56,155 bases of DNA from Bacillota bacterium (GTDB lineage Bacteria; Bacillota; Limnochordia; JAAZLZ01): contig JAAYLV010000019.1 in NCBI GenBank assembly GCA_012521755.1, positions 1 to 56,155 of the forward strand, written 5' to 3'. The notes beneath the pieces are model-generated. The model was given only the letters and a program-made list of their open reading frames with translations. It was not told the DNA's origin and did no database searches. Position 1 is the first letter of the stretch. Every line of letters begins with the position of its first letter. Shown piece after piece: positions 17,091 to 46,817 of the stretch. The position numbers and the translations under genes were made by a program.

Positions 17091-17594
17091 TTGGCACAGG
17101 CGACCGGAAAAAAGCAGACTAGTGAAAAACAATTGGTCGTGTTTACGCTGGCGACTGAGGAGTTCGGCATCGAGATTAACCAAGTGAAAGAGATCATCAA
17201 GCCGAGGGAGATTACCCGTCTACCCCATACACCAGAGTTCATCCGGGGAGTCATCAACTTGCGCGGGGAGATTATCCCGGTATTGGATCTGCGCAAGCGT
17301 TTCAACGTAGATGCCAGCGAAATTGATCGCGACAGCAGAATCATCGTCGTTGAAATCGCCGGTACCGTCGCGGGGCTGCTGGTCGATTCGGTCACGGAGG
17401 TATTGCGGATCGACGGCTCCCAAATCGAAGAGGCTCCTCGCAGCATCGCCGGTTTGAAGGCGGAGTTCTTGCAGGGTGTCGGCAAGATCGATGAGCGGTT
17501 GCTGATTCTGCTGGAAGTGAACAAGATTCTCAGCTCCCAGGAAGAGATCCAGCTGCAAACCCAGGTGGAGCTCGCCGCCAGTGAAGAAGACTGA
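17091..17594 (+). CDS. cheW: Chemotaxis coupling protein CheW
   Basis: A 167-residue CheW that links chemoreceptors to the kinase CheA. It shows the CheW fold: QLVVFTLATEEFGIEI, VKEIIKPREITRLPHTP, FIRGVINLRGEIIPVLDLR, and the V-T-E-V segment DSVTEVLRI. A short C-terminal tail is rich in Glu and Gln. The TTG start is preceded by GGGAGGGGAGGG (17071-17082). It is the first gene of a tightly spaced run with fliM, fliY, cheA, cheY, cheC and cheD. No receptor, cheB or cheR gene is in this window. Confidence 0.95.
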   Translation: MAQATGKKQTSEKQLVVFTLATEEFGIEINQVKEIIKPREITRLPHTPEFIRGVINLRGEIIPVLDLRKRFNVDASEIDRDSRIIVVEIAGTVAGLLVDSVTEVLRIDGSQIEEAPRSIAGLKAEFLQGVGKIDERLLILLEVNKILSSQEEIQLQTQVELAASEED

Positions 17595-17613
17595 GCGCAT
17601 ATAGGTGAAGGTC

Positions 17614-18597
17614 ATGAGCGATATTCTCTCCCAAGATGAGATCGATCAGTTGCTTCTCCTTGCCAGGGCGCAGCCGAGCGAGGTGGAGGAGCCTGTCTAT
17701 GGCTTGGATGCAGCTCCCTCTGTTTATGATTTTAGGCAGCCGAGCAAGCTCTCCAGGGATCACTTAAGGTCCATCCAGCGGATTCATGAGCAATTCGCCC
17801 GGGCCTTTTCGGGGCTTACTTCGGCCCGGCTTCGCACCCGGGTCGATCTTTCCATCGTATCCATTGAAAGATTGAGCTTTGGTGAATTCGTCAATGCCCT
17901 GGCCAGCCCATCGGTGATCAGCGTCTATTCCATTCAACCGCGAGATGGATTTCTCATCTTGCAGATGAACACGGAAATGGCCTTTATTCTCTACGATCGG
18001 TTGTGTGGCGGCCCAGGTCGGGCCCCAGACCGGCCCCGGGAAATGACTGACATTGAGCTGGCTGTGCTCAGCCGTCAGATTTTGACGGATTTGATTCGCA
18101 CCCTGGAAGCTAGTTGGCAGGAAGTATCGGATCTGTCCTTCCAGCTTCAGTTCACCGAGAGCAACCCCCAGTTCCTCCAGATGATGGCCGAACGGGACGC
18201 GGTGATCCTGGTCACCTTGGTCATGGAGATAGACCACTCCCAAGAGATGATCAATCTTTGCATGTCGCAAAGTGCGTTGGAGCCAGTCCTGAAGGAGATC
18301 ACTGGTCGGCGGCTGTTCGAATCAAGGCGCTCGCCGCAGCAGGAGGAGCTGGTGCAGCTGCGGGAGCATCTACTCAAAGCCGAGCTGCCTGTCGAGGTGG
18401 AACTAGGCAGAGCGACCTTGACCATGGAGGACTTGCTGGAGCTGCGGATTGGCGATGTCATTACCTTGGACCGGAAACGAACCGAAAAGCTCGATGTGCG
18501 GGTGGGCCACTCGGTCAAGTTCTTGGCATCACCCGGCAAACTAGGGCAGAAGCTCGGAGCTGTAATTACCGACATGTGTCAACAAGAGGGGAGATAG
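17614..18597 (+). CDS. fliM: Flagellar motor switch protein FliM
   Basis: A 327-residue canonical FliM of the C-ring. The N-terminal CheY-P-binding motif is intact (ILSQDEIDQLL), followed by the YDFRQPSKLS start of the middle domain. The middle domain contains the GGxG-like LCGGPGRA motif that contacts FliG. The C-terminal SpoA/FliN-like domain (LTMEDLLELRIGDVITLD, then HSVKFLASPGKLG) is complete. ATG 17614 was chosen over an earlier GTG because AGGTGA lies five bases before it. It is placed in the che module rather than between fliL and fliO, where a divergent relative now sits (44638-45417). Confidence 0.95.
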   Translation: MSDILSQDEIDQLLLLARAQPSEVEEPVYGLDAAPSVYDFRQPSKLSRDHLRSIQRIHEQFARAFSGLTSARLRTRVDLSIVSIERLSFGEFVNALASPSVISVYSIQPRDGFLILQMNTEMAFILYDRLCGGPGRAPDRPREMTDIELAVLSRQILTDLIRTLEASWQEVSDLSFQLQFTESNPQFLQMMAERDAVILVTLVMEIDHSQEMINLCMSQSALEPVLKEITGRRLFESRRSPQQEELVQLREHLLKAELPVEVELGRATLTMEDLLELRIGDVITLDRKRTEKLDVRVGHSVKFLASPGKLGQKLGAVITDMCQQEGR

Positions 18598-18601
18598 TGG
18601 G

Positions 18602-19639
18602 ATGGTGGATGATTTGCTCAGCCAAGAAGAAATCGATCAACTGCTGGGCGGCGTCTCCGAAGGAGAAGAGCCGGTGGAGCTCAGTGATCTGGAACGGGAC
18701 ACCCTGGCGGAAATCGGCAACATTTCCATGGGTTCGGCTGCGACGGCCCTGTCCACTTTAGTTGGCAAGAGGGTTAGGATCACCGTTCCCAGCGTTGAAG
18801 TGACGACTACTGCCCAGGTACAGGCAGCCTTCCCGACTCCCTGCGTAATCGTGACCGTAGAGTACACCTCCGGGCTCCAGGGTACGAACATATTCATCCT
18901 CAACGAATCCGATGCCCTAGTGATTGCAGGGCTCATGATGGGGGAGGATCCGCCTGATCTTTCGGCCGGGCTCGATGAGCTTCGTCTCAGCGCTGTGGCT
19001 GAAGCGATGAACCAAATGATGGGTTCCGCGGCCACAGCCATGTCGGAGCTGTTTCGGGAGACCATCGATCTGACCCCGCCAACAACTAAACATCAGTTGC
19101 TTGCGGAAACCCAAAAGGAAGTGCCTCTAGATGAGTCGGTGGTGACTGTCTCTTTCCGGATCGAGGTCGAGGGGCTTGTAGACAGTGAAATGCTCCAGGT
19201 CATCGAGACCCGATTTGCCCAAGAGATTGCTCGCCGCCTGCTCACGCCGGCCCAGTCGATGGCTGAAAGCTTAGAGGCACCAAAGCCAGAACCGCAACCA
19301 CCGCCGCCTCCTCCCGTTGCCGCAGCAGCTCCCCAATGGGAGCCAATGCCGGTGGCCCAAGGAAAGGAGACGCATGACAACATCAATATCGATCTGATCA
19401 AGCACATTCCCGTCCAAATAAGGGCTGTGTTGGGGCGAACCCGCATATCCATCGCCAACATCTTGAAGCTCGGGCCGGGACATGTGCTCGAGCTAGACAC
19501 CCTCGATGGCGAACCCATTGAGATCCTGGTGAACAATACGCCGATTGCCCGGGGTGAAGTAGTTGTCGTGGGCGAGCAATTCGGGGTGCGCATCACGGAA
19601 ATAGCAAGCGCTACCGATCGCATCAAAACCCTTGAATGA
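18602..19639 (+). CDS. fliY: Flagellar switch phosphatase FliY
   Basis: A 345-residue FliY: a short N-terminal CheY-P-binding motif (LLSQEEIDQLLGG), a CheC-like phosphatase domain and a C-terminal FliN domain, joined by a proline-rich linker (about residues 225-245). Both phosphatase half-sites are intact by eye: E37/N40 in TLAEIGNISMG and E134/N137 in AVAEAMNQMMG. FliY removes phosphate from CheY-P at the switch and replaces FliN in many Bacillota. The FliN part (VLGRTRISIANILKLGPG, then IARGEVVVVGEQFGVRITEI) is canonical. It starts four bases after fliM. Confidence 0.94.
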   Translation: MVDDLLSQEEIDQLLGGVSEGEEPVELSDLERDTLAEIGNISMGSAATALSTLVGKRVRITVPSVEVTTTAQVQAAFPTPCVIVTVEYTSGLQGTNIFILNESDALVIAGLMMGEDPPDLSAGLDELRLSAVAEAMNQMMGSAATAMSELFRETIDLTPPTTKHQLLAETQKEVPLDESVVTVSFRIEVEGLVDSEMLQVIETRFAQEIARRLLTPAQSMAESLEAPKPEPQPPPPPPVAAAAPQWEPMPVAQGKETHDNINIDLIKHIPVQIRAVLGRTRISIANILKLGPGHVLELDTLDGEPIEILVNNTPIARGEVVVVGEQFGVRITEIASATDRIKTLE

Positions 19640-19657
19640 GAAAGGAGGGGGGACGGG

Positions 19658-21592
19658 TTGGACCTTAGCGAATACAAGGATGTATTTGCTGCTGAAGCAA
19701 GGGAGTATATCCAGACATTAAACGACGACCTCCTAGATTTGGAGCAGCATCCCCATGATATGGAAGTCCTGGACCGGATGTTTCGCGGAGCCCACAGCCT
19801 CAAAGGGATGGCTGGCACCATGGGCTACGAGGAGCTGCAGCAGTTCACCCATGAGATGGAAAACGTCTTGAACGCTTTGCGGCAAGGTCGACCCGTTGAC
19901 GTCGAGATCATCAATCAGCTGTTCACTGCCTTCGACCTCCTCGAAATCCTCCTTGAGGAAAGCTTAGAACACGGGGAAGCAAAGACGGATACGACGGAGG
20001 TCCTGGAGAACCTCAGAAGCTGGCTCAGTCAGGAAGCACCCTCTGTCCAGCCTGACTTTGCCTTAGGGGAGCTGGACAAGGAAGAGATCAGGCAGGCCAG
20101 CCAGCAGGGAGAGCAGGCATGGAACATCCGGGTCCTGCTGCGGTCCAACGTTTTGATGAAATCGGCCCGGGCCTACACAGTCATCCAGGCTTTATCCCGG
20201 GTGGGGACAATCGTCCAGACTTCGCCCCCCATGGCCGATCTGGAAGAAGAACGATTTGACAATGAGTTTTCTGTCCTCTTGTTATCCAAAGCTGCCGCGG
20301 AGGACATCAAGGACATCTTTGACAAGATTCCCGAAATCGACCATGTGACCGTTGCCGAACTGGACATGGAGGCGGCCAAATCCCCTACTCAAAGCCAGGC
20401 CGCAACGACCAAACGTCGCTCCGAACATTTCGTCAGGGTCGAAACAGACCGCTTGGACAAGCTGCTGAACCTGGTGGGGGAGCTGGTCATCAGCCGTACC
20501 CAAGTGCTCGAACTTGGCGCGATGCTAGATGACAATACGGCCCGCGGCGCCATCGTTCAGCTCGACCGGGTGACCACCGAACTGCAGTACGCGGCCATGA
20601 GCCTCAGGATGGTGCCCATCAGGCAAGTGTTTGACCGCTTTCCCCGCATGGTCAGAGACCTGGCCCAGGCCGGGGGCAAACAAGTGCAGCTCAGGATTAC
20701 CGGTCAGGAGACGGAGCTCGATCGCTCCCTGGTCAACGAACTGGGTGAACCCCTCGTCCACTTGCTCCGCAATGCCGTCGATCACGGCTTAGAAAGTCCC
20801 GAGGAGCGCTTGGCCGCGGGGAAGAGCGAAGTTGGCACCATTTCCATCGCGGCCCGCCACGAAGGAAGCCACGTGGTCATCGAGATCAGTGATGACGGCC
20901 GGGGAATGGATGTGGAAAAGATCAGACAAAAGGCCATGGAGAAGGGGCTAATCGCCCCAGAGGCAAGTCTGTCGCCCCGGGAATTGTTGGACTTGGTCTT
21001 CCAGCCCGGCTTTAGCACCGCGGACAATATAACGGATATCTCTGGCCGCGGAGTGGGGATGGACGCTGTTCGTTCCGCGATCCAGCTCTTGAATGGTTCA
21101 GTTGAACTAGCGACCGAACTAGGGAAGGGGACGACAGTCACCATTAAGCTGCCGTTGACCTTGGCGATTATTAAAGCTCTCATGGTTCGCGCCAGAAACG
21201 AGATTTATGCCATCCCTATTCAGTCGATCCAGGAAAACATCCTGGTGCCGCGGGAAAAGGTAAAGACCATTCAGGGAGAAAAGGTCATCACCTTGCGCAA
21301 CCAAGTTCTGCCCCTGCTGGACCTGGCCGCACAGCTGGATGCAGGAGCCTTGGAGGATAAGAACATGTTGTCGGTCATCGTGGCCAACGTCGGCCAGGAG
21401 ATGGTTGGCCTCGTGGTGGACGAACTGCTGGGTCAGCAGGAAGTGGTCATCAAAACCCTCGACAGCAACCTTGCGAGCAGCCCCGGCATCGCCGGCGCCA
21501 CCATCTTGGGCAACGGGCAAGTTGCCCTCATCTTAGATGTAGCTGGCCTGCTTCAGCAGGAAAAGACCCCATATCGAGCAAAGGCCCAATAA
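19658..21592 (+). CDS. cheA: Chemotaxis sensor kinase CheA
   Basis: A 644-residue class II histidine kinase. P1 carries the phosphorylated His at residue 46 (RGAHSLKGMAG). A P2-like CheY-binding domain spans about residues 140-240. P3 dimerises (LVGELVISRTQV). P4 shows the N box HLLRNAVDHGLES near 367-379, G1 DDGRGMD, and G2 GRGVGMDAV. P5 is CheW-like and ends the protein. The kinase phosphorylates CheY in response to receptor signals. The TTG start has AAAGGAGGGGGG just upstream. It sits between the switch genes and cheY. Confidence 0.96.
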   Translation: MDLSEYKDVFAAEAREYIQTLNDDLLDLEQHPHDMEVLDRMFRGAHSLKGMAGTMGYEELQQFTHEMENVLNALRQGRPVDVEIINQLFTAFDLLEILLEESLEHGEAKTDTTEVLENLRSWLSQEAPSVQPDFALGELDKEEIRQASQQGEQAWNIRVLLRSNVLMKSARAYTVIQALSRVGTIVQTSPPMADLEEERFDNEFSVLLLSKAAAEDIKDIFDKIPEIDHVTVAELDMEAAKSPTQSQAATTKRRSEHFVRVETDRLDKLLNLVGELVISRTQVLELGAMLDDNTARGAIVQLDRVTTELQYAAMSLRMVPIRQVFDRFPRMVRDLAQAGGKQVQLRITGQETELDRSLVNELGEPLVHLLRNAVDHGLESPEERLAAGKSEVGTISIAARHEGSHVVIEISDDGRGMDVEKIRQKAMEKGLIAPEASLSPRELLDLVFQPGFSTADNITDISGRGVGMDAVRSAIQLLNGSVELATELGKGTTVTIKLPLTLAIIKALMVRARNEIYAIPIQSIQENILVPREKVKTIQGEKVITLRNQVLPLLDLAAQLDAGALEDKNMLSVIVANVGQEMVGLVVDELLGQQEVVIKTLDSNLASSPGIAGATILGNGQVALILDVAGLLQQEKTPYRAKAQ

Positions 21593-21656
21593 CGTGCACG
21601 AGTACGAACGGGGAGGTGTTCACAGCCACGACCCCATGGGGAATGGCGCAATTGCT

Positions 21657-22019
21657 ATGGCTCATACCATCTTAGTAGTAGATGATACCGCCTTCATGCG
21701 CATGATGATCAAGAATGTGGTGCAAAAACACGGATATCAAGTCATCGGCGAGGCTGGTGACGGTGAGGAAGCCATCGCCAAATACAAAGAGCTCCGTCCC
21801 GACCTAGTCACCATGGATATTACCATGCCGAAGCTGGACGGGATAAGCGCCATCAAAGCTATTATGGAATTCGATCCTAACGCGAAGATCATCGTCTGCA
21901 GCGCGATGGGCCAAAAAGCCATGGTCATTGAAGCTTTAAAATCTGGAGCCAAGGACTTTCTTGTCAAGCCTTTTGAAGCCGACCGGGTCATCGAAGCTCT
22001 GCAAAAAGCCGTTGGCTAA
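21657..22019 (+). CDS. cheY: Chemotaxis response regulator CheY
   Basis: A 120-residue single receiver domain. The phospho-acceptor is D54 (TMDITMP). The acidic pair D9/D10 (VVDDTAF), the switch residue S82 (VCSAMGQ) and the conserved K104 (LVKPF) are all present. Phospho-CheY binds FliM and FliY and sets motor rotation. I chose ATG 21657 (MAHTILVVDD), the family start; longer readings have no better ribosome binding site. An unused-looking GGGAGGTG at 21611-21618 is too far upstream to serve it. Confidence 0.95.
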   Translation: MAHTILVVDDTAFMRMMIKNVVQKHGYQVIGEAGDGEEAIAKYKELRPDLVTMDITMPKLDGISAIKAIMEFDPNAKIIVCSAMGQKAMVIEALKSGAKDFLVKPFEADRVIEALQKAVG

Positions 22020-22034
22020 GGGCGGTGCTTTAAT

Positions 22035-22637
22035 TTGACATACGAGAGCGACTTCAAGCTGGATGTGCTCAAGGAGCTGGGCAACATCGGGGCGGGCCAC
22101 GCCACAACCGCGCTATCAACACTACTTGGCAACAAGAAGCTTACCCTCGTGGTGCCTGAGGCCATGATCGTCGGGATGCAAGAAAGCATGAGTCTTTGCG
22201 GCGGACCGGAATCCCTGGTTGGTGCAATCTACATCAGGGTTTCCGGGGGCCTGTGCGGCCATATGGCTTTACTTCTTCCCTACGAAAGCGTCCAAAGCCT
22301 TCTCGGCTATCTACTAGGAGCGGCACCCCAAGAGCTCAGGGATATGGAGCTATCAACCCTCCAGGAAGTTGGCAATATCGTTGTCACTTCCTACTTGAAT
22401 GCCTTAGCCGAAATGACTAATACGCAGCTTTTTCCGTCGGTCCCCGCGGTAGCCGTTGACATGGCTGCGGCGGTGTGGAGCTCCATCCTAGCAGGCGCAG
22501 AAGTGGCCGATTACATCACCATTGTGCAGACCGGCTTTCAAACCGATGCAGAAATCATCGACGGCACCATCGCCTTCATCCCTGATGAAGAAGACTTGGC
22601 GAAGCTTCTAGGTGCCTTGGGCATGGGAGAGCTTTAA
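22035..22637 (+). CDS. cheC: CheY-P phosphatase CheC
   Basis: A 200-residue CheC with two phosphatase half-sites: E14/N17 in LKELGNIGAGHATTA and E111/N114 in LQEVGNIVVTS. CheC dephosphorylates CheY-P and is stimulated by CheD, forming an adaptation loop. The start is TTG, with AAGGGCGGTG upstream. Its stop overlaps the cheD start in a TAATG arrangement, so the two proteins are coupled in translation, as fits their physical partnership. Confidence 0.95.
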   Translation: MTYESDFKLDVLKELGNIGAGHATTALSTLLGNKKLTLVVPEAMIVGMQESMSLCGGPESLVGAIYIRVSGGLCGHMALLLPYESVQSLLGYLLGAAPQELRDMELSTLQEVGNIVVTSYLNALAEMTNTQLFPSVPAVAVDMAAAVWSSILAGAEVADYITIVQTGFQTDAEIIDGTIAFIPDEEDLAKLLGALGMGEL

Positions 22638-23113
22638 TGGAGGAAGTTTTCGTCAATATTGGGGAAATCAAGGTCTTAGCACAAGAGGGACGCCTTGTTG
22701 CGATAGGACTGGGTTCCTGCGTAGGTTTGATCCTCTATGACGAGCTGGCCAAGATCGGAGGCATGGCCCATGTTTTCCTGCCCACCAACAGGAAGGGAGG
22801 GGCCAATCAGCACCCGGGCAAGTTCGCGGACACCGCGGTTTCCGCCATGGTCGAGCAAATGGCAGCCATGGGGGCCCAAAAGCGTCGTCTCAAGGCGAAG
22901 ATGGCGGGGGGGAGCCAGCTTTTCTCTTACGGTGCTTCCGTCATGGATGTCGGCAGACAAAACGTGGAGGCCTTGCAAAGGGAGCTGCAAGCGGCAGGCA
23001 TTCCCTTGGTGGCCAGTGATGTGTTAGGCTCCCGGGGACGCAAACTGATTTTTGATGTGGGGACAGGCCAAGTGTTGGTTTTCGTCATTGGCCAGGAACC
23101 GGTTGAACTGTGA
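22637..23113 (+). CDS. cheD: Chemoreceptor glutamine deamidase CheD
   Basis: A 158-residue CheD that deamidates Gln residues on chemoreceptors and activates CheC. The catalytic Cys is C28 (GLGSCVGL) and the catalytic His is H45 (GGMAHVFLP). The core LFSYGASVMDVGRQN and SDVLGSRGRKLIFDV segments are present. Its ATG overlaps the cheC stop. It is the last gene of the che module; a 75-base gap with a long inverted repeat follows. Confidence 0.95.
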   Translation: MEEVFVNIGEIKVLAQEGRLVAIGLGSCVGLILYDELAKIGGMAHVFLPTNRKGGANQHPGKFADTAVSAMVEQMAAMGAQKRRLKAKMAGGSQLFSYGASVMDVGRQNVEALQRELQAAGIPLVASDVLGSRGRKLIFDVGTGQVLVFVIGQEPVEL

Positions 23114-33940: not shown

Positions 33941-34951
33941 GTGTTTCGCAAAGGGACTTTGACCGGTAAACAAAAGGCAGCGGTACTGCTAGTTTCTTTG
34001 GGACCAGAGCTCTCTTCCCTCGTGTTTAAACATTTGCGGGAAGAGGAGATTGAAGAGCTCACCTATGAGATCGCCAGCCTCGACAGAGTCATGCCCGAGA
34101 TCCGGGAGAAGGTGGCCGTCGAGTTTAGCCAATTGGCCCAAGCCCGGCGATACATCACCCAGGGAGGGATCGAGCAGGCCAAGGAAATCCTGGAAAAGGC
34201 CCTAGGGCCCCAAAAGGCCACGGAGATCATTCAGCGCCTCACTGCGTCGCTGCAGGTGCGGCCCTTTGACTTTGCCCGTAAGACCGACCCCGCCCAGCTT
34301 TTGAATTTCATTCAACATGAACATCCCCAGACCATCGCCCTAATCCTAGCCTATCTCCACCCGGAGCAAGCCGCGGTGATCCTCTCCGCGCTGCCTGGGG
34401 AAAGCCAAGTAGAAGTGGCCAAACGCTTGGCCATCCTCGACAGGACAAGTCCTGAAGTCCTGGAGGAGATTGAGGCGACACTGGAGAAGAAGCTGTCTTC
34501 CTTTGCCACCCAAGACTTCACCATGGCCGGCGGCCTGGAGACGGCAGTGAGCATCCTCAACAGGGTGGACCGCTCGACGGAAAAGACCATTATGGAAGCC
34601 TTGGAAGAGGATGATCCTGAGCTTGCCGAAGAGATCAAGAAGAGGATGTTCGTCTTCGAAGACATCGTCACCCTCGATGATCGGTCAATTCAGCGCGTAC
34701 TCCGCGAAGTTGACTCCCGCGAACTGGCCTTGGCTTTGAAGGCCGCCAGTGAAGAAGTGGCCGAGCGGATTTACAAGAACATGTCCAAACGAGCTGCGGA
34801 AATGATGAAGGAAGACATTGAATACATGGGACCCGTCCGCCTGCGGGACGTTGAGGAAGCCCAACAGAAGATAGTCAGCATCATCCGCAAGTTAGAGGAA
34901 GCTGGAGAGATCATCGTCGCACGGGGAGGGGAGGATGAGATAATTGTCTAG
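33941..34951 (+). CDS. fliG: Flagellar motor switch protein FliG
   Basis: A 336-residue rotor protein that converts stator force into rotation. The N-terminal domain (GKQKAAVLLVSLG) binds FliF. The middle domain has the EHPQTIALIL motif that contacts FliM. The C-terminal domain has the MFVFEDIVTLDDRSIQRVLREVDSRELALALK torque helix with its alternating charges. GTG start with GAGGGGAT upstream. Only one fliG is present, although FliM and FliY are duplicated in the window. Confidence 0.96.
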   Translation: MFRKGTLTGKQKAAVLLVSLGPELSSLVFKHLREEEIEELTYEIASLDRVMPEIREKVAVEFSQLAQARRYITQGGIEQAKEILEKALGPQKATEIIQRLTASLQVRPFDFARKTDPAQLLNFIQHEHPQTIALILAYLHPEQAAVILSALPGESQVEVAKRLAILDRTSPEVLEEIEATLEKKLSSFATQDFTMAGGLETAVSILNRVDRSTEKTIMEALEEDDPELAEEIKKRMFVFEDIVTLDDRSIQRVLREVDSRELALALKAASEEVAERIYKNMSKRAAEMMKEDIEYMGPVRLRDVEEAQQKIVSIIRKLEEAGEIIVARGGEDEIIV

Positions 34952-43379: not shown

Positions 43380-44175
43380 GAGCGAGAGCAGTGAATCCGG
43401 TGGCGTCGCCCACTGGATGTTGACCTACAGCGACATGGTTACGTTGCTGCTCTGTTTTTTCGTATTGCTCTTCGCCTTTTCTACCATCGACATCCAGAAA
43501 TTCAGAGCAATCATGAGCGCCTTCCAAGGGTCCATCGGGGTGCTGGATAGCGGTCGGGCGCTGCATCAAGATGACCGGGTTGAGGATGCGGCCTTGGAGA
43601 TGGATTTGGAACAAGTCATCATGCAGCCTAGCATGCAGGAGATAAGGCAACTACAAGACATCTTCGATACTTTGCAGAATTGGGCGGCCCAACAGGACTT
43701 GGAAGGACTAGTGTACATGGTCATGGAGGAGCGGGGCATCGTCATCCGCTTTGCCGATCGAGTCCTCTTTGAGCTGGGCAAAGCGAACCTTACGGAAGAG
43801 GCCAAAGTGGTTCTCAGCCGGATAGGGGGCCTATTGGCCCGGCTGCCGAACCATGTGCGCGTCGAGGGGCATACGGACAATTTGCCCATCAGGACCGCGA
43901 TGTTCCCCTCCAACTGGGAGCTGTCAACGGCCCGCGCGACGAGCGTCATCAGGTATTTGATCGAGAATTGCGGCCTGAAGCCGAGCATGCTGTCGGCCGC
44001 CGGTTATGGGGAATACAGACCAATCCAGAGTAATAACACGGACGAAGGCAGAGCTGCCAATCGCCGGGTGGACATCGTCATCCTGCGCCAGGGCCTGAGT
44101 GAAGCTGAGCCATACTCCCCGCCCCTAGATAAGTCCGATGTAAAGGAGCGAGATGTCAATGGAGAGTGGACGTAG
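43360..44175 (+). CDS. motB: Flagellar stator protein MotB
   Basis: A 271-residue peptidoglycan-anchored stator subunit. A basic N-terminus leads into HWMLTYSDMVTLLLCFFVLLF, with the proton-carrying Asp at residue 25. The C-terminal OmpA-like domain shows VRVEGHTDNLP and NWELSTARATSVIRYLIE, then the NRRVDI end, which bind peptidoglycan. ATG 43360 has AGGGTGG about seven bases upstream. The longer reading starting at 43309 overlaps motA. Confidence 0.95.
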   Translation: MARRRRRSESSESGGVAHWMLTYSDMVTLLLCFFVLLFAFSTIDIQKFRAIMSAFQGSIGVLDSGRALHQDDRVEDAALEMDLEQVIMQPSMQEIRQLQDIFDTLQNWAAQQDLEGLVYMVMEERGIVIRFADRVLFELGKANLTEEAKVVLSRIGGLLARLPNHVRVEGHTDNLPIRTAMFPSNWELSTARATSVIRYLIENCGLKPSMLSAAGYGEYRPIQSNNTDEGRAANRRVDIVILRQGLSEAEPYSPPLDKSDVKERDVNGEWT

Positions 44176-44626
44176 TCTTCGGCTAATCATCATTTTCGTC
44201 GCCCTAACTATTTTGGCTGCCGCCGTCATCCTTTACACCGGGTTTGCCCTTTTTGGCAAGCATCAACAAAGCGAGGTCGTCGCGGGACAACCCCCAGTAA
44301 AGGAGCGCACCAGCATTGGCCCCACTTTCGATGCGGGGACATTCACCGTTAATCTGTTGCCAGGCCAAGGCAGGGTGACCTCCCGTTATTTGCGCACCCA
44401 ACTAGTCTTTGAAGTCAGTTCACCCAAGGCAATCCAGGAGCTGGAACAGCGAACGCCGCAGGTTAAGGATAAGATAATTAGCATCCTCCGCTCGAAGACT
44501 GTTGAAGAGATGATGGATCCCCAAGGGGATAATCGACTGCGGGAGGAAATCAAGGAAGGAATCAACCAACTGCTCCACCAAGGGGAAATCGTCGAGGTCT
44601 ACTTCATCGACCTTGTGATCCAATGA
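44153..44626 (+). CDS. fliL: Flagellar basal body-associated protein FliL
   Basis: A 157-residue single-pass membrane protein. One membrane segment lies at residues 10-32. The extracytoplasmic FliL domain shows FTVNLLPG, RYLRTQLVFEVSSPKAIQEL, and the end VYFIDLVIQ. FliL forms rings around stators and affects torque and stator assembly. The ATG follows AAAGGAG closely and overlaps motB by 23 bases. In most Bacillota fliM-fliY come next; here a divergent pair takes that place. Confidence 0.93.
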   Translation: MSMESGRSLRLIIIFVALTILAAAVILYTGFALFGKHQQSEVVAGQPPVKERTSIGPTFDAGTFTVNLLPGQGRVTSRYLRTQLVFEVSSPKAIQELEQRTPQVKDKIISILRSKTVEEMMDPQGDNRLREEIKEGINQLLHQGEIVEVYFIDLVIQ

Positions 44627-44637
44627 GGTGAAGCCCG

Positions 44638-45417
44638 ATGGAAGGGTCTTGCCAGGACAGACAACCCGCGAAATTCAGTTTTCGTCACCGACCCAAGGGC
44701 AGCCAGGTCGTTTACCAGTTTTATCGTGAGGGGTCGCAAAAGCTGGCAAGGCGTCTAGAAAGGCTGCTTAGCACCAGCGTCCAGGCCTGGCTTAGGGAGG
44801 TCCGGTTTGGCCTGCGGGCAGGATCATTCCCGGATGGTTACTTATTTGCCTTCCAGGAAAGAGAGTCTTGCGATCTGGGGTACATGCACCTGGAAGGACA
44901 TCTTGTCCGAGCTATCCTGCAGCGACTGTTAGGGGTCGATGGGCCTGACGCGGCATACAAGGAGCTCACCCTCCTGCAACGGGGAGTCCTCCTAGGGGTG
45001 GTCAAAGGTCAGCTGGAGAGTCTCGACTTGCCCGCCCAGGTTGATTTTGCAAAGGGCCAGGGACCTCACCCGTCGCCCGAGGCCATGCACATTGCCATTC
45101 GCTTGCGGATAGGCGGTGTGGCGGGGATGCTCCACCTTCATCTTCCGCCGTCAATGGTGGGGCCAAGACCATCATCGCCGCGCCTTGACGAGTATTCTTT
45201 GACGCTGACGGCTTGCTTGGGGGAGGAGGAGCTCACCCTCGAGGAATATCTTGAACTAGAATGTGGCGATGTGGTCTTGTTAGGTTCGACCAAGGACCCT
45301 TTGCCTGTTTACATCGGGCAAAGGCGCTGGCTGCGGGCCAAGCCGGGGATTTGCGGGACACGCATGGGGATTCAGATTACCGACATACTGCACGAAGGAG
45401 ATCGATCCTGTGAATAG
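44638..45417 (+). CDS. Divergent FliM-like switch protein lacking CheY-binding motif
   Basis: A 259-residue protein at the usual fliM position. It aligns by eye with FliM from the middle domain on: KFSFRHRPKGSQ matches YDFRQPSKLS, and ELTLLQRGVLL matches the segment before the second helix pair. The C-terminal SpoA-like end (LTLEEYLELECGDVVLLGS to GTRMGIQITDIL) matches FliM's. It lacks the N-terminal EIDQLL motif, and the GGxG loop is replaced by LLGVDGPDA. It is 68 residues shorter than the fliM at 17614. It probably forms part of the C-ring but could not take FliM's role in binding CheY-P. Its 3' end overlaps the FliY-like gene by eight bases. Confidence 0.75.
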   Translation: MEGSCQDRQPAKFSFRHRPKGSQVVYQFYREGSQKLARRLERLLSTSVQAWLREVRFGLRAGSFPDGYLFAFQERESCDLGYMHLEGHLVRAILQRLLGVDGPDAAYKELTLLQRGVLLGVVKGQLESLDLPAQVDFAKGQGPHPSPEAMHIAIRLRIGGVAGMLHLHLPPSMVGPRPSSPRLDEYSLTLTACLGEEELTLEEYLELECGDVVLLGSTKDPLPVYIGQRRWLRAKPGICGTRMGIQITDILHEGDRSCE

Positions 45418-46390
45418 GAATATTCTTTCCCAAGCAGAACTCGATGCCTTGTTGGGTAATGGCCTGCAAGATGGGTCCTCGATGCGGGACTTAGACATGG
45501 ACACCTTAACGGAACTAGTCCAAGTCTGCGTCCAAAGCACGGCCCAGACCCTCCAGCAGCATCTTACGCCGACTATCAGTCTCCATCCTCCCGAAGGATG
45601 GGAGTGTACCTGGGAGGAGTTTCGCGCTGCCTTATCAGAAGAAGACTACTTGGCCCTCCTTGCCGAGTATGGAGAACCTCTTCGCGGCGGTACACTGTCT
45701 TTGTTTACCTTTGATAATCTAGAGTCGGCGGCAGCTATTATCCCCGGGGGCGCCGCCACAGGCGAGGCTTTGCTTTACACGATTGTCGAACAGTTTGCCA
45801 ATACCCTCAACTCCCTATTGGATGAGTCCCTTGAAACCCGCCTAGGCATTGTTGAGCGGGTCGGTCCTGATGGGTTGAAAAGCCTGTTGCCCCTGCGCAA
45901 CGGCGAGGAGTTCATCGCCTTTCGGTTTGGCTTTTTTATCGAGAACGTGACTAGTCTCGAAGGTCATCTGCTCCTCCCTGTAAGTGTTGCGGAACAGCTG
46001 ATCAGCGCCTTGCACCATGCGCCGCCGCCTTCCCCAAGGCGGGGCCAACGGCGGGAGGCAAGAAGCGTCTATCCTGCCCAGTTCCCGCCTTTGCGTCCAG
46101 ATCCCGAGGAAGAGATCGGTCAAGACATACACCTGCTGGCCGATGTGGAACTGGACCTGTATGTCGAGCTGGGACAGACCCAAATGAAGGTTGAAGAAGT
46201 CCTGCAACTCGGCATCAGTGACTACATCACCTTGGATAAGACGGCGGGCGAGCAGGTAGAGGTTTACATCAACCAAAAGGCCTTTGCCAGGGGCGAGGTC
46301 ATTGTCATCGATGAACATCTGGCGGTGAAGCTCACCGATATCATCGAACCGGAAGAGAGGCTGGATCAGATTTCCATCGGGTCCGAATGA
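45410..46390 (+). CDS. Divergent FliY-like switch protein with inactive phosphatase sites
   Basis: A 326-residue protein at the usual fliY position. It has an N-terminal CheY-P-binding-like motif (ILSQAELDALLG), a middle domain weakly similar to CheC/FliY, and a canonical C-terminal FliN domain (YVELGQTQMKVEEVLQLGISDYITLDK to ARGEVIVIDEHLAVKLTDI). In the two phosphatase half-sites the Glu is kept but the Asn seems lost: E35 with Q38, and E127 with A130. So it is probably not a phosphatase. With the preceding FliM-like protein it may form a special C-ring unit. GTG start overlaps that gene by eight bases. Confidence 0.78.
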   Translation: MNRNILSQAELDALLGNGLQDGSSMRDLDMDTLTELVQVCVQSTAQTLQQHLTPTISLHPPEGWECTWEEFRAALSEEDYLALLAEYGEPLRGGTLSLFTFDNLESAAAIIPGGAATGEALLYTIVEQFANTLNSLLDESLETRLGIVERVGPDGLKSLLPLRNGEEFIAFRFGFFIENVTSLEGHLLLPVSVAEQLISALHHAPPPSPRRGQRREARSVYPAQFPPLRPDPEEEIGQDIHLLADVELDLYVELGQTQMKVEEVLQLGISDYITLDKTAGEQVEVYINQKAFARGEVIVIDEHLAVKLTDIIEPEERLDQISIGSE

Positions 46391-46445
46391 GAACTAGTCG
46401 GATGGGTCTTCCGGCTCAATCTTGCTCCGATCGGAGGCGATGCCC

Positions 46446-46817
46446 TTGACGGGCCCGGACCAGGCAAACCTTTTTTGGGAAGCCGCGAAGGTTTTTCTGA
46501 CCCTTCTTTTGTTCATCCCCTTCATCTACTTGGCCACTCGGTTTTACGCACAAAAAGGCCTGCGGGCCGTAGAGGGAAGAAGACGGCTGTCAGTTGCCGA
46601 AGTCTATTCCTTAGGGCCGCGCCAAAAACTAGTCCTCCTTGAAGTGGGACAGCGGCTTCTCTTGCTCGGGGTGACCGATGGGGCAATTAACGTGCTGCTG
46701 GAGATGGACCAAGAGGACCTGCCGGCCTTGCCCCTAGAGGAGGCGCCGGGGTTTGCAGGCAAATTGCGGAAGGCTCTAGGACAGCTGACGGATAGCAGGG
46801 AGGCGACGGACGATTGA
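46446..46817 (+). CDS. fliO: Flagellar biosynthesis protein FliO
   Basis: A 123-residue membrane protein with one N-terminal membrane segment (VFLTLLLFIPFIYLATRFY) and a cytoplasmic FliO domain (RRLSVAEVYSLGPRQKLVLLEVGQRLLLLGVTDGAINVLLEM). FliO is a chaperone for assembly of the FliP-FliR export gate. TTG 46446 fits GGAGG eight bases upstream; ATG 46440 and TTG 46422 are worse placed. It is directly followed by fliP, overlapping by four bases. Confidence 0.85.
   Translation: MTGPDQANLFWEAAKVFLTLLLFIPFIYLATRFYAQKGLRAVEGRRRLSVAEVYSLGPRQKLVLLEVGQRLLLLGVTDGAINVLLEMDQEDLPALPLEEAPGFAGKLRKALGQLTDSREATDD

Follow-up and report, generated by a model that had tools for sequence, protein, structure and literature searches.

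The question raised by this locus is why a bacterium with a canonical fliM–fliY pair in its chemotaxis cluster carries a second, divergent pair between fliL and fliO. The flagellar C-ring serves both rotation switching and export docking, and these functions are hard to separate by mutation in model species. The window, the whole stretch of DNA that was analysed, is one entire contig of 56,155 nucleotides from a Limnochordia genome of the phylum Bacillota; the assembly that was searched comprises 1.96 Mb in 140 contigs and is 93% complete. A first-pass annotation of the window had recognized both pairs and attributed the second, here termed FliM2 and FliY2, to a functional split rather than to decay. 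The possible roles named were a mixed C-ring, an export-docking platform and a switch unit that binds CheY without dephosphorylating it.

Two FliM–FliY pairs and one FliG

The second pair and its immediate neighbours are arranged as follows.

44153–44626, forward strand: fliL, upstream of fliM2–fliY2 (PF03748, 80.2 bits)
44638–45417, forward strand: fliM2, 259 aa, ATG start; shortened FliM-like middle domain (about residues 19–170) and FliM-type SpoA domain (183–251)
45410–46390, forward strand: fliY2, 326 aa, GTG start; N-terminal peptide (5–16), middle domain and FliN-type SpoA domain (243–312)
46422–46817, forward strand: fliO, downstream of fliM2–fliY2 (PF04347, 61 bits)

Both reading frames are intact and overlap by 8 nt. 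A Shine-Dalgarno-like GAAGGAG precedes fliY2 within the 3' end of fliM2, and the two genes are probably co-translated. They belong to the closely packed run motA-motB-fliL-fliM2-fliY2-fliO-fliP-fliQ-fliR-flhB-flhA, and a search for a promoter-like site in front of fliM2 found none. In profile searches (FliM, SpoA, CheC), the SpoA domains of FliM2 and FliY2 scored 52.8 and 74.9 bits with PF01052, far over the cut-off of 23.8. These scores, the conserved presence of the pair in two other genomes of the genus and dN/dS below 1 exclude a match by chance and substantiate the first-pass assignment of a second FliM/FliY-type pair to the fliL–fliO slot.

The canonical pair lies in the chemotaxis cluster of the same contig, as the first-pass annotation had it.

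17091–23113, forward strand: chemotaxis cluster cheW-fliM-fliY-cheA-cheY-cheC-cheD, which houses the canonical pair (matches to CheY PF00072, CheC PF04509 and CheD PF03975)
17605–18597, forward strand: canonical fliM, probable start ATG at 17614 (PF02154, 161 bits, and TIGR01397, 254.8 bits, over cut-off)
18602–19639, forward strand: canonical fliY (NF005995, 358 bits, over cut-off; CheC PF04509, 100 bits)
33941–34951, forward strand: fliG, EHPQ motif present; the sole FliG_C match in the genome

Canonical FliM has the peptide ILSQDEIDQLL and the loop LCGGPG. Its partner FliY combines the peptide LLSQEEIDQLL with an active-type CheC domain, in which both ExxN motifs are present (DTLAEIGN and SAVAEAMN), and a FliN domain. 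These four are the SpoA genes over cut-off in the genome. Since there is a single FliG, the cell probably has one flagellar motor. Elsewhere in the window, directly 3' of flhG, a YcgR-like PilZ protein (PF12945 and PF07238; 53801–54424) is a likely c-di-GMP motor brake.

Domains and motifs of FliM2 and FliY2

The SpoA domain of FliM2 is FliM-type and aligns with the FliM-type end AKPGxxG...IQITDI. The middle domain falls below the FliM profile PF02154 (12.6 bits in the window genome, G000, and 16.2 and 23.4 bits in the relatives G001 and G002, vs a cut-off of 27), and the protein scores under the NCBIfam equivalog TIGR01397 (42.9 vs 219.6). About 18 alignment columns and the last helix of this domain are missing. 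Structure prediction with AlphaFold2 (pLDDT 75) nevertheless returned a FliM-like middle-domain fold, with Salmonella FliM as best Foldseek match (8umx_C, E 1.8e-15) and TMt values of up to 0.73 against FliM middle-domain crystal structures; FliM sequences were part of the input alignment and bias the outcome towards FliM, so that the model lends support without being independent evidence. The first-pass description of a FliM-like protein without a CheY-P-binding N-terminus and without a GGxG loop agrees with the alignment to canonical FliM. The EIDALL peptide is absent from the N-terminus in the window genome and G001, the two in which it was scored, as the G002 copy is cut by a contig end. 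In place of the FliG-binding GGxG loop, LCGGPG in canonical FliM, the three genomes have LLGVDG (window), LLGTDE (G001) and LLGMED (G002). Because this loop is lost, FliM2 on its own probably cannot form a switch bound to FliG.

FliY2 was said to keep ILSQAELDALLG and a canonical FliN domain, and both hold on motif and profile evidence. The peptide, of CheY-binding type, occupies residues 5–16; its EIDALL-type core, ILSQAELDALL, is conserved in the three genomes of the genus. The FliN-type SpoA domain matches Thermotoga maritima FliN (1o6a, E 4e-18). No match to the CheC profile PF04509 was found in FliY2, and the predicted structure of the middle domain (pLDDT mostly above 75 at residues 30–205) has a CheC fold, with T. 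maritima FliY as best single-domain match (4hyn, TMt 0.70–0.73; CheC 1xkr, 0.66). A motif scan detected none of the D/SxxxExxN catalytic motifs, two of which occur in the genome's canonical FliY, and FliY2 remains under the phosphatase FliY model NF005995 (114.6 vs 218). This loss of the CheC catalytic motifs adds to the differences listed in the first-pass annotation. With the ExxN motifs lost and the peptide kept, FliY2 is predicted to be a pseudo-phosphatase with a CheC fold and could still bind CheY through the peptide; CheY binding without dephosphorylation is plausible.

Conservation, selection and distribution in the class

Each of the three genomes available for the genus has the fliM2–fliY2 pair, the 8-nt overlap included; identities to the window proteins are 73 and 65% for FliM2 and 89 and 82% for FliY2. 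Neither stops nor frameshifts were found in fliM2 of the three genomes, with the G002 copy cut by the contig end. G000 and G002 each have the canonical pair in full; in G001 a SpoA gene fragment of 93 bp lies at a contig end and is probably the canonical FliY. Within the genus, dN/dS (w, Nei–Gojobori) is 0.07–0.15 for FliY2 and 0.25–0.33 for FliM2 as a whole, compared with 0.03–0.2 for most other flagellar genes and up to 0.28–0.29 for fliO and the YcgR-like gene. FliM2 itself is heterogeneous: w is 0.10–0.19 in the SpoA domain and 0.37–0.42 in the remainder, including the middle domain. Its dN is much higher than in most operon neighbours, and for that reason its own contribution may be small. 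Intact frames and dN/dS rule out a pair of pseudogenes. The first-pass annotation had linked decay to frameshifts and relaxed selection in related genomes; the former are lacking and purifying selection is present, whereas part of FliM2 is indeed relaxed. FliM2 is eroded in part; what is being maintained is FliY2 and the SpoA domain of FliM2.

The survey of the class covered 73 genomes, from which 60 regions were fetched, the second locus being sometimes read from search tables. Four states of the fliL–fliO slot were distinguished. A degenerate FliM with FliY2, together with a che-cluster pair elsewhere, occurs in families f1 (the genus of the window), f13 and f15. A single fliM–fliY pair without a detected che-cluster pair characterizes f2, f3, f4 and f16. 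FliY2 alone (about 300–340 aa) accompanies a che-cluster fliM–fliY in f5, f6, f9, f10, f11 and one genome of f8 (G022). Finally, a bare FliN of 103–139 aa, with fliM–fliY elsewhere, is present in f7 and f14, and the short form also occurs in a second f8 genome (G023); the five loci with only this short FliN in the slot form the end point of the series. Two paired loci, for which a survey of related genomes had been proposed, were seen in f1, f13 and f15; in the other families one pair was detected, or the slot has FliY2 or FliN only. Every surveyed locus that spans fliL–fliO encodes a FliN-type protein; the FliM-type partner varies from intact through degenerate to absent. No fliL-slot FliM is found in f5, f6, f8–f11 and f14. 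By both the domain-wise w and these families, it is FliM2 that erodes and the FliN-type protein that is kept.

The distribution of motifs follows the locus. All 17 che-locus FliMs scored (17/17) have the CheY peptide, but of the fliL-slot FliMs only those of f3 and f4 do. Among fliL-slot FliYs the peptide occurs in f1, f3, f4, f9–f11, f13, f15 and f16 and is missing in f2, f5 and f6; none of them has the ExxN pair, whereas che-locus FliYs have the motifs, full or partial. Two FliM-type genes each were seen in f13 (five loci) and f15 (four loci), where the fliL-slot FliM has lost the CheY peptide and, unlike FliM2 of the window, kept a GGxG-like loop. In f16 (five loci) the sole pair found consists of a FliM without the CheY peptide and a FliY with it and without ExxN motifs, so that, judged from its motifs, FliY alone would dock CheY. 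As f16 has the same reciprocal pattern with only that pair found, the pattern need not reflect a split with a canonical pair; we read it as a trait of the fliL-slot lineage, not itself evidence of such a split. The claim of a functional split rather than decay does not stand as worded, in view of f16, of the loss of the fliL-slot FliM in related families and of a w of about 0.4 in the FliM2 middle domain.

In a FliM tree the che-locus FliMs found in the class group together as a clade (98/91), the fliL-slot FliMs fall outside it, and the branch leading to FliM2 has a length of about 3 changes per site; a recent duplication of the che pair is not supported by this topology and branch length. 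A clade uniting che-locus and single-pair FliMs was not rejected (AU test, p 0.456). A SpoA-domain tree of FliY/FliN proteins had too few alignment columns to place FliY2. The FlhA tree, a quick one based on a single gene, places the genus near FliY2-only families (support 90) and scatters the dual-pair families, with no single clade. This arrangement is consistent with the fliL-slot FliM having been lost several times while its FliN-type partner was retained, but is no proof of it.

The second pair: proposed role and comparison with known C-rings

The explanation we favour, to which we give an even chance, is that the fliL–fliO pair is an old FliM–FliY pair coexisting with the che-cluster pair in one motor, its SpoA module serving export docking and its peptide tethering CheY. 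It starts from what was observed of gene anatomy, lost motifs, conservation, selection per domain and the phylogeny of the loci, and from the single FliG; from these we infer heterodimer formation, membership of the same C-ring, FliH docking and CheY tethering. The che-cluster FliM and FliY would perform switching: they would bind FliG and CheY and dephosphorylate CheY-P. FliM2 most likely pairs with FliY2 through their FliM-type and FliN-type SpoA domains, and the resulting module may join the lower C-ring as extra FliN-like ring mass and offer a docking site for FliH of the export ATPase. The FliY2 peptide would tether CheY(-P), its CheC-fold domain presumably no longer dephosphorylating CheY-P. 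FliM2 would contact FliG no more and be heading slowly towards the loss seen in families with FliY2 or bare FliN only. The heterodimer is a candidate lower-ring and export-docking unit because binding of the FliH N-terminus to the FliM–FliN SpoA heterodimer is stronger than to the FliN homodimer (PMC4443714) and because the FliY SpoA domain alone restores the C-ring and export apparatus in Helicobacter pylori (PMC8809382). The export-docking and mixed C-ring roles suggested by the first-pass annotation fit, with heterodimerization and FliH binding predicted from homology. As the first 60 residues of the window FliH hold no tryptophan, the enterobacterial aromatic clamp is not transferable here.

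It is also conceivable, if rather unlikely, that only FliY2 matters, as the FliN of the ring, and that FliM2 is a decaying leftover kept mainly by translational coupling to fliY2. The loss of the CheY peptide and GGxG loop from FliM2, the shortening and relaxed w of its middle domain and the families with FliY2 alone or a short FliN in the slot all point this way, but the SpoA domain of FliM2 is strongly purified, its gene is free of stops and frameshifts in the genus, and a degenerate fliL-slot FliM is retained in f13 and f15 too. We regard as improbable that the pairs form alternative or mixed switches, in which rings or sectors of the second pair differ in their CheY response (binding without dephosphorylation) and tune the switching bias conditionally. 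Loss of the GGxG loop from FliM2 throughout the genus argues against it, as do the position inside the main fla operon and the lack of a detectable promoter-like site in front, even though FliY2 of all three genomes has the CheY peptide without the ExxN motifs and f16 indicates that docking of CheY on FliY only may suffice.

Least probable by far is that the second pair works in another machine, a second flagellum or a non-flagellar secretion system. Duplication of a full pair would suit a second system and is the only positive evidence, whereas the single FliG_C match in a 93% complete assembly argues against a second flagellar system, and both genes lie within the main flagellar operon. A type III secretion SctQ identity was rejected on one SpoA domain per chain, flagellar context and poor matches to TIGR02551 (14.1 and 45.3 bits vs 100.8).

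Beyond the preferred coexistence of an old pair with the che-cluster pair, a C-ring of two complete FliM–FliY pairs, a canonical switch and a FliG-uncoupled layer for export docking and CheY buffering, is unlikely. If true, switching and export docking, the work of one ring in model bacteria, would be partly split between paralogous SpoA modules. The proteins would be natural separation-of-function variants: a FliM predicted to lack FliG and CheY contacts but with SpoA, and a FliY predicted to lack catalysis but with the CheY peptide. Moreover, the graded series in the class, from a full second pair through FliY2 alone to bare FliN, makes the indispensable part of the C-ring testable by comparison.

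In a sample of 160 genomes of the phylum, 139 have SpoA genes, most of them two or three; Thermobrachium, Proteiniclasticum and Bacillus altitudinis have two each. Five other genomes (G082, G095, G128, G166 and G200) have four, read from frame lengths and spacing as FliM, FliN, FliY and a further FliN, which in their loci (L225–L250) stands separate. These Bacillota with an extra FliN, and likewise G085, resemble the window in combining FliM with several SpoA proteins, but the added genes are short and FliN-type, without a second FliM–FliY pair. A plasmid search with FliY2 gave no record over most of the query, the matches listed being FliN-domain matches, and the open-access papers searched yielded no report of one motor with a second FliM-type partner.

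The canonical pair is of the same type as the switch of Bacillus subtilis and T. maritima. FliY2 shares the peptide/CheC-fold/SpoA architecture of their FliY, and fliM2–fliY2 occupies the Bacillus-type position from fliL to fliO. Those bacteria have one pair each and the window genome two, FliY2 being devoid of both ExxN motifs, and FliM2 lacking the CheY peptide and the GGxG loop and having a shortened middle domain. In the SctQ/SpaO sorting platform a SpoA1–SpoA2 heterodimer docks the FliH/OrgB–ATPase complex, as proposed for FliM2–FliY2, but SctQ has two SpoA domains per chain, whereas FliM2 and FliY2 have one each and are encoded inside a flagellar operon. Earlier work describes multiple SpoA paralogues, EIDAL motifs that turn up sporadically in FliN/FliY, and phosphatase-dead FliY (PMC6946799), and Campylobacter and Helicobacter have several SpoA proteins per C-ring and a FliY without phosphatase sites (PMC6946799; PMC8809382). 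Their C-ring resembles the one proposed for the window genome in SpoA proteins beyond FliM and one FliN, a FliY without phosphatase active sites and duplication with division of labour. However, these bacteria multiply the FliN/FliY side only, whereas the window genome duplicates the FliM-type partner too and keeps a phosphatase-type FliY.
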